The notes under the pieces: model-generated
What the model was told of the DNA's origin: nothing
Seen by the model: only the letters and a program-made list of their open reading frames with translations
The model's database searches: none
Assembly: GCF_048128805.1 (NCBI RefSeq)
Contig: NC_135997.1
Coordinates: forward strand, 8,683,116 to 8,747,115
DNA: 64,000 bases
Reading direction: 5' to 3'
From: Centroberyx gerrardi
Lineage: Eukaryota > Chordata > Actinopteri > Beryciformes > Berycidae
Made by a program: the position numbers and the translations under genes
Part shown: one piece after another, positions 5,204 to 51,151 of the stretch
Layout of the letters: each line of letters begins with the position of its first letter
Numbering within the stretch: position 1 is the stretch's first letter

Positions 5204-26418
<21,215 letters not shown>

Positions 26419-32300: not shown

Positions 32301-35300
32301 CACTTGAATGACAAAGTTGTCACGTACAATTAATTTAAATGTTACAAGAACATTTCTGTGTTCAGACGTGGAGGACAGATTTGCCTCTAAAAATGGCATT
32401 TAATCATCAAGTTCAAGCACTGGTCTACTTCTCTCTTCCGTGTGAAGTGAGCTGGCAGCTGACTTGGCTTCCTTTTTGTGCATGCTTCAGTCATGCTAAA
32501 CATGTGACGGAGACAAATAAGCTGCATCCTGTGCGCTCAGTGGTTGTGATTTGTTATAGCGGTAATTGTGAAGAGCCAAGGAATGTAAATGCAACTGCTT
32601 GTGTTAAGTACAGCAAATAGGAGCAGTTCATTTGATACTGGAGGCGTTCTCAATGAAATTAAATAAGACATCCATAACATTGCCACATTAAATGATTATT
32701 AAACATGCACAGTAAAATCGGGGTTATTGTATACAATTAATGATGCAGCCCAACTCTCTTGTACTTAAAATTGGTTGGTGTCAATAAGATAGGATTCAAC
32801 TAATGGAGGTAAAGAAGGTGAGGCAAGTCAAGACCATGCAGCCTTCTCCGATACCCACCTCCAAGATCAATCAGCAGAGAGAACAACCCTTGTCTACAGA
32901 GAAAAGCCTTGGGTTACAGTGTCTGCTTACAAACCTGTTCTCCTTCTAGACACAAAGTTGTTTTAGATGTCTTTTGTCAATGAATGGCAACTTAAACTCA
33001 CAAGTCATATTAATAACTCGCATTTTTCATGTCCTCAGAGTTTTGTGCACACAAAGATTTTTGTGGGTCTGGACCAGGCGCTGCCCTCATTCAATGTGAA
33101 TGAAAAGGTGGAGGGTCCAGGGGGTTCGTACCTGGGTCACATCCAGACGGAGACGGGGGCGCGGGTCTTCCTCAGGGGAAAGAGTTCTGGCTACATTGAA
33201 CAAGCATCAAAAAGAGAGTCCTTCGAGCCTCTTTATGTCTACATCAGGTAATGTTCAATCCTAAATGCTAAATACAAGATCATGTACCATATCAGGGCTC
33301 TAAATGGACTTTTTTACTTGGTAGCATTGGTGCTCCTAACCTCCAAAACATAGGAGCACCAACAAAAATGTAGGCGCACCCCAAAAAATGTAAGGAACAC
33401 CAGTTTATTTTTTATATATAAATATACACGCAGTGTCAGTAAGATGGTATTCCACTAATGGAGGTAAAGAAGGTGAGGCAAGTCAAGACCATGCGGCCTT
33501 CTCCGATACCCACCTCCAAGATTAATCAGCAGAGAGAACAATCCTTGTCTACAGAGAACAGCCTTGGGTTACTGCGTCTGCTTACAAACCTGTTCTCCTT
33601 CTAGACACAAAGTGTGTGTGTATGTATATATATATATATATATACACACATTTATTTTTATATATATATATATATTTTATTATTTTTTTATTGGAAAAAT
33701 AGCCAATGCTTTACAATCATTACAGTTTCATGCTATGTGTATATACTCTCTATCTAGATATGGAACATAGAAACACATACCAACACTAATTATTTACATA
33801 GATTGGCAAACATTAGCATCATAATGATAATAATACACAGCACATTTAGCATCAGTAGTTGACATGGCTTCCATACTCTCTAAAAGTCACATCTCCGCTT
33901 AGTCATAGAAAATCCCCGCTTTCGAGTCAAAACAAACTGGCCAGTGCAGTAATGCTGTCCTTGAGTGGTATTGCACTCATGTTCACTGTATATCTGAGTG
34001 TTGGGCAATTATACACAAAAAAGTGGCACGTTAATTTCTAGCACACACTATTAACACATACATGAGGTTTGGAGCACTTTTCACTTTTGCTTTCATAAGG
34101 GTCTGGCTAGATAGGAGTCAGTTATAATCTGGACAGCCAGCACTTGTGGAAAATAGTGTTTCTTGTGAGAGGAAGCCTGAGGAAGGGGATTTAATTTTAG
34201 CCAATAAAAAAAGAACAGCCTTAAGGTAAATACAATCACGTTGTTTTTTGGCCAGAACCAAAAGGGAGAGGAGTTGACATGCTCAGTCTAAAAAAGTTAT
34301 TCAGACAAAGGCGCACCAAGACAATTATTTGTAGGCACACAAGCGCTCCCAAATTTAATTTCCAGGTTGCACAATTTCAATTTTAGTGGCCGCACTTTAG
34401 AGCTCTACATATACTTCACAATTAGGCTAAAACCATTTTCTTTCTTGTTAACTGCTACTCTTTTCCTGAGTCTGGTTCATCCTAGTTAACAGTGGTCCCT
34501 TGTGTGTTATAGCCATCCAAATGCAGCTGGATTGGAGTCAGCAAAGAAACTCACTGAGAGTCTGCTGGAAACTGTAAGTTTCTAATTTTCTCACAACAAA
34601 TAAAGCGGTGGAGTGTGTCGGAACTGTATGAGAGTCTGATGGGAGGTACAAGAAGGTGAAACTATTAAAGCATATAGTTTTCACTGATACCCACCTCCTA
34701 AAGTAAAAGTGGTAGCGTGAACCACCTGATCTCCAGAGATAGGTTTTGAGTGCTCTGCACCTACCCACAATGCTTACTGCAACTCTGCTGTTAAACTAAT
34801 ATAAATCAACCCTGCCTTGGAATGTTCTCTTCTTTAGCGTCTCACATTTTGTTTCTCCCCGGTTTTCCAGGTGAGAGCTGAACACGGCCGCATGGTGTCG
34901 ATCTACACAGCCACCGGCTCCACCCAACGTGAGTTTTCCTTTACACCTTGTAACTAAACAGGCAAATTCCAACAGGGTGACCTAATATCAGATACTAGCT
35001 GATTTAATGTATTCTTCTTGTGGTAATTAACCCTCTCCTGACGTCTTTAGTGGCCCAACAATAGGTTGGAATAGGTCAGAGTTTTCAAAAACCCTGTGTT
35101 ATTGATCCATGTGATACGTGCTATTAACTCCATGTTCTATACTTTCATTTCAGCATACGCAGCACATGGATTTCCACCTAATAGCAATTACTCTAGCCAG
35201 GGGTCCTGGTATAACTACCCAGCAAATGGGTATGCTGGCGGCTATTCAGCGTACCCAGGAGCCGGTGGTTATTGGAGTAATGCAAATGGTCCCCCAAGTC

Positions 35301-46498: not shown

Positions 46499-49400
46499 AT
46501 GAATAACGTAGAATATGAGCGTTTAGACAGCTTGGACGGCTGGGTCGCTGTAAAAAGTAACATATTTGAAGAAAACGAGACGTTTAAGCTGGGATTTATC
46601 GTGCAGTGGAATGTCATCGAGTCTAAGTTTGCTGTCACCTGTCACAACCGGACGTTACAACGGCAAAAACGCAAAGACCAAGTTGCCGTCGGAGACTCTC
46701 AAATGAGCTGGGCTGGACTCTTCTCTGTCAACGATCTGAAACACATCCATCAACAGTTTACATGTGTGGCTGATGTCTTGGTAGCCTATCTTCCGGATTT
46801 ATCCGATTTTGAAGAGGGCAACATTTGGGACTTGCTATTCCTGAATCGGAAGTCGAGTCCAGACGATGACGAGAGAGATTTTGATACACCTTGTCGAAAG
46901 CTTGAGAAATATTTCAGCACGGCGATCGATATCTGCGGACGCAAAATAGTGCTGGATACCTTATTCACACAGGATGAACGCGACGTCGAGGAGTACTTTG
47001 AAAATCTCCAGGAGTTCAAAAGGAAGACCATGCAGGATGAGATGGCGAGAGCCAAGGGTCAGCTGCGAGAGGTGAGGCACTGGACTGCTGCTCAGTGTCT
47101 GCTCTGTCCTGAAAACTAGGGGAGAACGGGGTCAAATGAGCCGCAGGATAGGGTTATGCAGTTTTAGAAGTAAAATAGGTGTCTTTTGGCACAACTTGCC
47201 CCAGGGAAGGGGTAAGGTTAGCCATAAGGACTATTTTTATGATTGTATAGGTCTAAATGAGCATGCAGTGGACCCCAGGAAGACTAGCTGTGCTTTAGGG
47301 CAAAGCTAATGGGGATCCTAACAAATAAACAAAAGCAGTAAAATGGACAGTCATACCGAACAGGGAGAACACAGTTCTCTAGATGAGACCTCGTCTGAAG
47401 CTGGGGAGCTAACATGCGGTGCACCTCAGGGATCTATTCTGGGACCCCTCCTATAATAACCTGTCATTACACCTTGGCAAAACCGAATCTGGTTTGTTTG
47501 GCACAAAGCATAGCTGAAGTAAAGCAGTTGGGATCAAGGTAACCTGTGATGGCAAAGGAATTGAGTCCAAATCTCCTGTCACATATTATTTAGGGCCCAT
47601 ATTAGATCAGTCACCTTCTAGCGAAGCGATAGCAGACATAATCCTAAGTAGGATGCCAACAAACTGAATTATCTGCACCGCAGAACAAGGCAGTTTGGCA
47701 TAAAAACCAGGCAACTACTAGTAACAGCTCTAATACAGTGCCATCTTGATTACGCCTGTTCAGTGTGCCACAGTCTCTTAACATCCAAACTTAAGAGAAA
47801 GATGCAAGTTCTCCAAAACAACATGATACACCATCTACTTGATCCTCCAACCAGAAGTCATGTTGGGCCAGAGGACTTTAAGACAGTGGACTTGTTACCT
47901 GTGCAGCTAGCAGCTTAAATTCAACTACATGTTTAACATCATAAAACCATAAAAAACACACCATACTCGGCACAGGGAGGACCACATTGGAAGCAAGTGT
48001 CATTTCACTTTCATTTCACTTTCCCCTGGGTTGGCACAGTACTTTGGACTCTCTATCTTACCCAAATCGAGTCAAAACAAATCAAATCAAGGACGGGGCA
48101 AATTGAGCCCTATGGGGGTAAAATATTGAAAAGAAAAAAATTAAAACCTTTATTTTTGTCTTTTTCAGTCCTTTTACTAGGGCCTTACCAGCATGCCACA
48201 AGTTCAGTGTGTCTCTCCATTCTGTCTCCTCTGAGAATGTCTCCCATTTTTTCCTCTTTGACATTCTAACAATATAGCCTAACTTCAACTACTTCAACAT
48301 AACATGGGATACTTTCTCTGATTCCCAAAAGGATAACAATGCACCAGGTGGCTCAGCAACTGCCAACACAAAGTTTGTGTAGTGATTGTGTGTTTAAATT
48401 AATTACATTTAACTGAATGTAAATGTAACTCGATTGTTGTAAGCTGAGCCATTGGCTTATTGGCCCCATAGCTCGTGGCACATTTACCCCACAACCACCA
48501 TTTTGACAAAACTGCTTCACACAAGCCCTCAGTTATGCCAAGTTTTTACCCTCATAAATGAATAGGCCTATATAATAAATCCTCAAACATATCTACTTCC
48601 TTTTAGATACAAGAATCATGACAGCTTTACCATGATGAAATCACCTCACATAGCAAAAATCACGTTTTTTTCCCCCTCACTTATCACTTCACTTACCACT
48701 TTCTCCATGTGCTCTCTTCCATCACAGATTCAGGGAAACTAATTACTGTTTCTATATCTGTGATCAAATGATTCATTTTGTGTATGGTTGCCTAGATACA
48801 TGGGGTGGCTCATCTTACTCACATGCTCAGCATACCCCATTCTCCCCTGTGACTGCCAGCTTAAATTTCAATGACTGACTCAGCTGACCTAGGGACAAAA
48901 CCTTCATCAGATGGGGGTCTGTGGTCTAAAGTGTATCAAACTGGAGATCCCCGACATGAAAAGGTTTGGGAACCTCAGGGTGTGGATGACACACAAGATG
49001 TTAAAGAGTTGAGGAGACTCATTTGTTAGACTTCTGTGGTAAGGGTCAGAGTTGCAGTCTACACCACTAACTTTATCTTGAAGTGGCTGCACCAGTCGAC
49101 CTTCAGCTACAGTAACTTGGTTGTCAAAGTAGTAAACAGTACCTAAGTTCTGTGCTTGCTTGATGCTGTACTCATCATAGTATTCATCAGAAAGCTTATT
49201 GCCACTTGATCTGACTTCGCCAGCTACGTCCTCTGTAAGGCACACTGCAGGAATGATGAGATCTATTTGCTTAGCTGCTGTAGTCGCGGTATTAGATAAC
49301 TTCTCAGTCTTATATATTTTTTCAAAACAGTCATATTGGTGTGCTCAGGTGTGATTGGTACAAAGAACAGCTCCCTGCACAGATTTTTCTAGTGCATTGC

Positions 49401-51151
49401 AAACATGGAATAGGGCTGCGCAATAATTCAATATTATCGTATATTGTCTTTCAATAGAATCATATCATGATGAAATAATGATTTCGAGTTATTTTGATAC
49501 ACAATTCTTCATTCACAAAAATTCACAATTTTTGTCTAAAATTACAGTTTTATCATAATTTAAATTCCCATGCAGTTCAATGCAATGAACTGGCCTGCCT
49601 CTACAAGATGGAGATCCTGGTAAACATAGACTCATACTTGCCAACTGTGGGCTTTTGATAATTTATTATGATTATTGTTATAATAATTTTGTCCATATCC
49701 TCTAGCCCTAGAATGGAATAGCTATGCCGAGCGAAGAGTTGGCCGAGGGCAGAGGGAATAAGCCCAAGCAATGGTGTTTATGTCTTCTCCATCCACAGCT
49801 GCTGCAGAGCCACGGCAGCGCTGACGGCATGGTTCTGCTGCTCAGCATCTACCAGGAGGAGGACCAGGCCTACCAGGACCTGGTCACAGTGGCCACCACC
49901 TTCTTCCAGTACCTGCTCCAGCCATTCAGAGACATGAGAGAGCTGGCCTGCCTCTACAAGATGGAGATCCTGGTAAATATAGGCTTGACAACTTGACAAC
50001 TGTGGGCTTTATTTTTAGGATAGTGTGTATTGCATATGCTCCTTTTAAGGTACAATCTGCAGTTTGTTAGCATCTACACATTGGATATACAGTATGTAAA
50101 CATCAGGTATTGAAAAGTTTGACTTAAATGAAAAGGAAGTTTTGTGGAACTGTCTTCACTCAAAGCACAGGTCTGCTTACAGATTCTGCCAATGTAAATA
50201 CACATTTTACACCCTCAGAACACATGTAAAACTCATCTTTACTGCCAGTCCTTGTATCAAAAGCTCAGATAGTAAATCTCAGAGTGGAAAATGGCCAATA
50301 AACCACTATGTAAACAAATTCAGTTTTGGGGTGACAAATCCTGCAGTGACATGACTGTTTAATCACTAACCTTCTTTGTTATTGAAAATACAATATTTCC
50401 TTTCACTCAATGGACAATTCAAATAATTATTTTGGTTGCTATAGGTCCCCCTGCTGGTCGGGGGTGTTTAATTTGTAACTGCTGATATTCCCAAAACATG
50501 CCACCCAGGGAGTGATTGGCCTATGTTTCAACCCTAAATTGGAGTCAAATTAGGACACTGATTCACAGCTTTTTTCCTCCAGTAATTTGCATATGGTTGC
50601 TGTGCTGGAGTGTTAGCTGATCCTAGAACTGGCGTGAACCTCAGGGATTCAGCAGCCGGAGCGGCTCTAATGTAATCATGAGCCTGAGTGATTACCAGGT
50701 CACCCTGCCTGGAGCGCATGGGAGCCCCAGTCAGAGAGGGACATGACCAGAGCTCTCCATCATGGTCTAGACACACACATACACACACACACACACGGTA
50801 GGAGAACGCTGGACACAGTTTGATCTTTTTTTGTTCATTCCTGCAAAATGTGAGGCAGATTTTAAATTTCTCACCAAACTAAATTTGAGTAAAAGCCAAA
50901 GGCATATATATATTAAGTAACTGTTCTGCATTAAATCGCTGAGTGCAAAGTTGTCTAGTTTTTGCTTACTGTGGTCTTTTGCAGAAGTCTTTGGAGTATG
51001 AGGACTTGGGTCCTAAGAGAATTGCAGCTCTGGAGAAGGAGGCGGAGGAGTGGAGGAGAAGAGCGGAGGATGCAGTCGCCTCAATTCAGGACATCACTGT
51101 CACCTACTTTGTGCAGACATCAAAGGCTCTGGCTGGTATAGGCGACTATGT

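Follow-up and report, generated by a model that had tools for sequence, protein, structure and literature searches.

A copy of exon-end and splice-donor sequence inside an intronic hAT-like MITE of a WHAMM-like gene in Centroberyx gerrardi

The closest described counterparts of the locus presented here are the single-copy Pack-TIRs, which according to the survey of Tan et al. (2021; PMC8277862) arise mostly by transposition-independent gap filling with nearby DNA. In that survey 56.9% of the single-copy cases lie within 15 kb of their parent, their breakpoints are skewed towards the interior of the element, some have exonic sources, and microhomology at one or both breakpoints is reported for 67.6% of published Pack-TIR cases. 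The detection filters given there comprise an insert of >100 bp and an identity of >=90%, both chosen for young cases, and require the 100 bp around the parental copy to be free of any TE. Two further systems are related. The Pack-MULE, Pack-TYPE (PMC8903248) and Pack-MITE elements of plants hold gene fragments within non-autonomous TIR elements and shuffle the captured DNA genome-wide, and templated insertions made by template switching, as in MMBIR or Pol theta repair, leave short DNA copies at the repair site (PMC8421209, PMC13015775). Less close is the model in PMC7954356, as described there, of template switches within about 100 nt, in which the alternative template is read oppositely.

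The window, i.e. the whole 64,000-nucleotide stretch of Centroberyx gerrardi DNA that was analysed, contains a patch of host sequence within a MITE of a WHAMM-like gene that can be compared with each of these systems. As in the single-copy Pack-TIRs of PMC8277862, host DNA lies between the ends of one TIR element, the parent is nearby, the breakpoints are internal and a single copy is found; the exonic content is likewise shared with some of them. At 69 bp and 89% identity the patch falls below the filters of that survey (>100 bp and >=90%), but these are search cut-offs and not biological definitions, and we therefore place it with the Pack-TIRs. It differs from the published cases in the share of the element that has been replaced, approximately 18% where the published median is 4.6%, and in a parent that belongs to the same gene and lies only some 285 bp from it. 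With the templated insertions it shares a short DNA copy at a presumed repair site; here, however, the acceptor is a transposon, and the copies have had time to diverge by 11%. The gene fragment in a non-autonomous TIR element resembles that of the plant Pack elements, whereas the patch has no second copy among the genomic places found. The process is already known, and the patch is another single-copy Pack-TIR-like case. As the survey's cut-offs for size and identity would miss it, such events are probably undercounted. Literature searches returned no paper on a hAT Pack-MITE in vertebrates and none linking a splice donor or pseudoexon, template switching, introns and local duplication; transposition-independent gap filling of Pack-TIRs matched only PMC8277862.

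The host gene, the MITE and the copied segment

The relevant features of the locus are as follows, with the strand given where one applies and with putative exon boundaries.

46499..47071, + strand, coding part of exon 1, 191 codons, ending in phase 0 at GAG/GTGAGG
49403..49410, left target-site duplication ACATGGAA, 6 of 8 bases identical to the right one
49411..49710, hAT-like MITE copy of 300 bp, starting with TAGGGCT and ending with AGCCCTA; family consensus 355 bp
49411..49508, left part of the MITE, consensus 1-98
49509..49537, second scar in the MITE copy, 29 bp without a consensus match; consensus 99-183 lost
49538..49590, middle part of the MITE, consensus 184-236
49587..49655, + strand, copied segment: 33 nt from the 3' end of exon 2 (49587-49619), then 36 nt of intron 2 from the GT at 49620-49621
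49656..49710, right part of the MITE, consensus about 302-355 (BLAST match of 49658-49710 to 303-355)
49711..49718, right target-site duplication GAATGGAA, 6 of 8 bases identical to the left one
49799..49972, + strand, exon 2, 174 nt, phase 0-0, predicted from Pfam JMY and splice-site scores
49940..50010, + strand, parental segment, comprising the 3' end of exon 2 (49940-49972) and the first 38 nt of intron 2 (49973-50010)

Exon 1 is predicted from its open reading frame, a Pfam WHAMM-JMY_N match (E 6.5e-89, submitted stretch 46499-47074) and the top-scoring donor of the five GT sites at 47030-47130; a PDB search with it gave a single match at chance level (E 0.52). Exon 2 matches Pfam JMY over 49799-49972 (E 1.1e-23), with an acceptor (AG 49797-49798) and a donor that rank at the 98.1th and 97.5th percentiles of 909 AG and 880 GT sites, respectively, all splice scores being from a human matrix. 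The Pfam matches support a gene of the WHAMM/JMY family, which, in line with the initial annotation, we provisionally take to be WHAMM rather than its paralogue JMY. By these coordinates the MITE lies in intron 1.

The initial annotation described a 300-bp element with inverted TAGGGCT ends and similar 8-bp flanks, and the comparison with the rest of the genome bears this out. At least 39 other genomic places match the MITE; 38 align with its left 81-100 bp (83-89% identity) and one with positions 2-180 (72%). As this search of the 779-Mb genome (278 contigs) scored the best 40 of 882 first-look candidates, the count is a minimum, and the family may be far larger than these 39 relatives, from whose fetched sequences the 355-bp consensus was built. 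Both ends could be placed in 11 of the 39. In 8 of these the two flanks agree at 6 or more of the 8 positions, 3 of them exactly, with 5, 5 and 0 agreeing bases in the remaining 3. The MITE copy in the window agrees at 6 of 8, a level reached or exceeded by 0.58% of random 8-mer pairs drawn from the window. The many copies, inverted ends and 8-bp target-site duplications that define a hAT MITE are hence all present, and the suspicion that the ends might not belong to a real transposon is dispelled. The hAT label itself follows from the 8-bp target-site duplications and the terminal sequences, which we take to be typical of this superfamily. An Rfam scan of 49000-50500 gave nothing at gathering score.

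A self-BLAST of the window confirms the duplication of 49940-50010 at 49587-49655 (88.9% identity over 72 alignment columns, E 4e-18). The 33 exonic nucleotides of the copy show 1 mismatch to the parent, and the intronic part, 36 nt against 38 nt, shows 3 mismatches and gaps of 3 and 1 nt. Copy and parent lie 353 bp apart from start to start, with a spacing of 353-355 bp throughout; the template is thus in the same orientation some 285 bp downstream of the copy, the end of the MITE being 229 bp upstream of the parental segment by coordinates. The similarity ends sharply on either side, as had been noted initially. A genome search with 49570-49670, which scores only the best candidates and skips very common words, hit two genomic places, one being the query and the other the parent (89%, 89.7 bits, E 7.8e-17), and hence a single unambiguous parental copy. 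At this E value, chance similarity can be set aside almost with certainty, and so can an assembly artefact, since two copies that differ by 11% are not a duplicated assembly stretch.

The copied segment is absent from the 355-bp consensus and has no BLAST match (E up to 0.01) in any of the 39 fetched relatives, several of which do not reach this part of the element. It is therefore not a normal part of the MITE, nor is it carried by all MITE copies, as the initial annotation had considered. Instead, approximately 69 bp of host DNA stand in place of approximately 65 bp of the MITE (consensus about 237-301), with both breakpoints internal (about consensus 236 and 302 of 355), and this non-TE stretch is flanked by both MITE ends, each flank reaching the end of the consensus. 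The insert is foreign to the MITE family and derived from the adjacent exon. As the source crosses the exon-intron boundary, the template was unspliced and so not a mature mRNA.

The copied splice donor

The copied donor reads CTG/GTAAAC against CTG/GTAAAT in the parent. The GTAAA core is kept, and the C at +6 in place of the parental T lowers the score from 3.03 (97.5th percentile of the 880 GT sites) to 1.48 (95.3th percentile); 9 of the 134 GT sites of intron 1, itself included, score at least as high. The extra donor had been placed at 49621, and a GT is indeed present there, its exact position being 49620-49621 and that of the real one 49973-49974. It had also been suggested to act as a decoy in WHAMM splicing. 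As worded this does not hold, since the copied donor lies upstream of the acceptor of exon 2 and so cannot substitute for the donor of that exon. It could only serve as donor to a new upstream exon or, remotely, to exon 1.

An exon of the former kind can be drawn:

49548..49619, + strand, hypothetical pseudoexon of 72 nt, open in the WHAMM frame and in phase, using the copied donor

The patch might accordingly be functional now, with its donor defining a new alternative or poison exon of WHAMM, a reading compatible with either of the origins by local copying discussed below and one to which the kept GTAAA core, the percentile of the donor and this open, in-phase exon would lend themselves. We nonetheless regard it as very improbable. 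Apart from the weakened donor, the acceptor of the pseudoexon is weak (76.7th percentile of the 909 AG sites); the alternative exon start at 49576 (79.3th percentile) gives a 44-nt exon that is out of frame, and the top-scoring AG of the element (exon start 49458, score 2.6) brings in an in-frame stop, as judged from the limits of the open reading frames. In addition to the 9 of 134 GT sites noted above, 771 of 2600 overlapping 72-nt pieces of intron 1 are likewise open. Most likely the patch is without function. It would be correspondingly far-fetched to propose that, when a broken transposon in the intron was repaired, a functional 5' splice site was copied from the adjacent exon of the gene and an in-frame alternative exon of 24 codons thereby arose; were this true, transposon-guided copying of exon edges inside one gene would be a route to new exons.

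Origin of the patch

Of the two origins offered in the initial annotation, a Pack-MITE-like capture of host sequence and a copy filled in by template switching during repair of a break, the latter fits best. In a transposition-dependent origin the MITE or its ancestor would have taken up the segment and transposed together with it as a Pack-MITE; alternatively, the gap left by excision of the MITE would have been repaired with the segment. Elements that capture and move DNA do exist among the plant Pack-TYPE elements (PMC8903248), and PMC8277862 describes a few multicopy Pack-TIRs from animals too, such as hAT-N8_XT of the frog. Here, however, no second insert-bearing element is present among the genomic places found, the parent adjoins the MITE, and the breakpoints are in the interior of the element and not at its ends, all of which makes such an origin improbable; the specific case of a mobile Pack-MITE was rejected, the segment having a BLAST match in 0 of the 39 fetched relatives and only two places, itself and the parent, among those found. 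Also rejected were spliced mRNA as the template, the source including intron sequence, and homology-driven gene conversion, the homology at the junctions amounting by eye to no more than 1-3 nt.

We therefore consider it probable that the patch originated by transposition-independent gap filling or template switching in an old MITE. A non-autonomous hAT element would have been long resident in intron 1 of the WHAMM-like gene when its AT-rich interior was broken or became a stall site for a replication fork. In the ensuing repair synthesis approximately 65 bp of the element would have been lost and, in one template switch, approximately 69 bp copied without change of orientation from a template some 285 bp downstream that spans the boundary of exon 2 and intron 2, followed by rejoining to the element. 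The outcome would be a single-copy Pack-TIR-like patch that has been immobile since. As such it would be a small, clean case, with acceptor element and donor template both identifiable in a span of 600 bp. It agrees with the notion that inactive MITEs of introns are points of breakage or stalling that are filled with DNA from nearby, and it shows that a splice signal can be included in such a patch.

The second scar is consistent with a break-prone interior of the MITE. The 29 bp at 49509-49537 contain the inverted repeat ACAAAAATT-CAC-AATTTTTGT with 9-bp arms and are matched over their full length in none of the 39 fetched relatives, and two private lesions 53 bp apart suggest either that the interior of the MITE is fragile or that both lesions stem from a single complex repair. 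An element-to-flank match such as that of the MITE copy in the window was seen in none of 20 other copies (approximately 4.5 kb of flank per side, E up to 1e-3). Two of these 20 have consensus-free stretches of their own, one copy with 227 and 188 bp (L053), which are probably two neighbouring fragments, and another with 31 bp (L065); neither copy's stretches are derived from its flanks at E up to 1e-3.

Timing gives weak support to a capture after the insertion of the MITE. The MITE parts differ from the consensus at 20 of 202 sites, a figure that errors in the consensus would raise, and the copied segment shows 4 substitutions in 103 site-branches, with the exon taken on the copy's branch only and the intron on both. 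The difference (Fisher p = 0.074) is not significant, so that the insert would only tentatively be called younger than the MITE. Microhomology judged by eye is approximately 1 nt at the left junction (C; with GAAC/GAGC included, 3 of 4) and 0-1 nt at the right; as random junctions share at least 1 nt in 46% of cases, this is uninformative. The MITE shows a weak tendency to form a hairpin (z -1.90), and equally good folds arise in 7 of 200 shuffles. The lack of informative junction microhomology, the non-significant age difference, the weak hairpin propensity and the large share of the element that has been replaced, compared with the published median, all stand against gap filling.

The initial annotation held that the abrupt ends of the similarity speak against a simple tandem duplication of the whole interval. 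This is right as worded, but a tandem duplication plus a later deletion gives the same structure. A duplication of approximately 355 bp, from 49656 in the MITE to 50010 and including all of exon 2, followed by a deletion of approximately 350 bp in which the spacer was lost together with consensus 237-355 of the MITE and the greater part of the first copy of the exon, would yield a sequence identical to the present one. The constant spacing of 353-355 bp agrees with this route. Furthermore, with its 174 nt and phase 0-0 a tandem extra exon 2 would have preserved the frame for a while, and losing it again may have been advantageous; further local direct duplications are also present in the window. 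The route requires two events rather than one, however, and no other remnant of the first unit is seen, so that we judge it possible but unlikely beside gap filling or template switching within the MITE.

Self-BLAST of the window gave 5 local repeat pairs of at least 40 bp and less than 2 kb apart, the WHAMM pair included. Given the four others, short local duplication alone is not unique here, and the WHAMM pair may represent local duplication in which the transposon played no role, which is a further point against gap filling. The distinguishing feature of the WHAMM pair is its position inside a MITE.

Some of the other repeats in the window have features of their own. The segments 32778-32958 and 33433-33613 form a direct duplication of 181 bp, 94.5% identical and 475 bp apart, that is not a simple repeat; this pair is more alike than the WHAMM pair and perhaps younger. 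At 6625-6906 and 8664-8898, direct repeats 1.8-2.0 kb apart, which align over 70 columns with 86% identity and over 177 with 80%, are perhaps two copies of one repeat element. Finally, 23545-23617 and 23847-23916 form an inverted pair that starts with TTAAAGGAATAGCTC, has 81% identity across 74 columns and a separation of 230 bp, and may represent two transposon ends.
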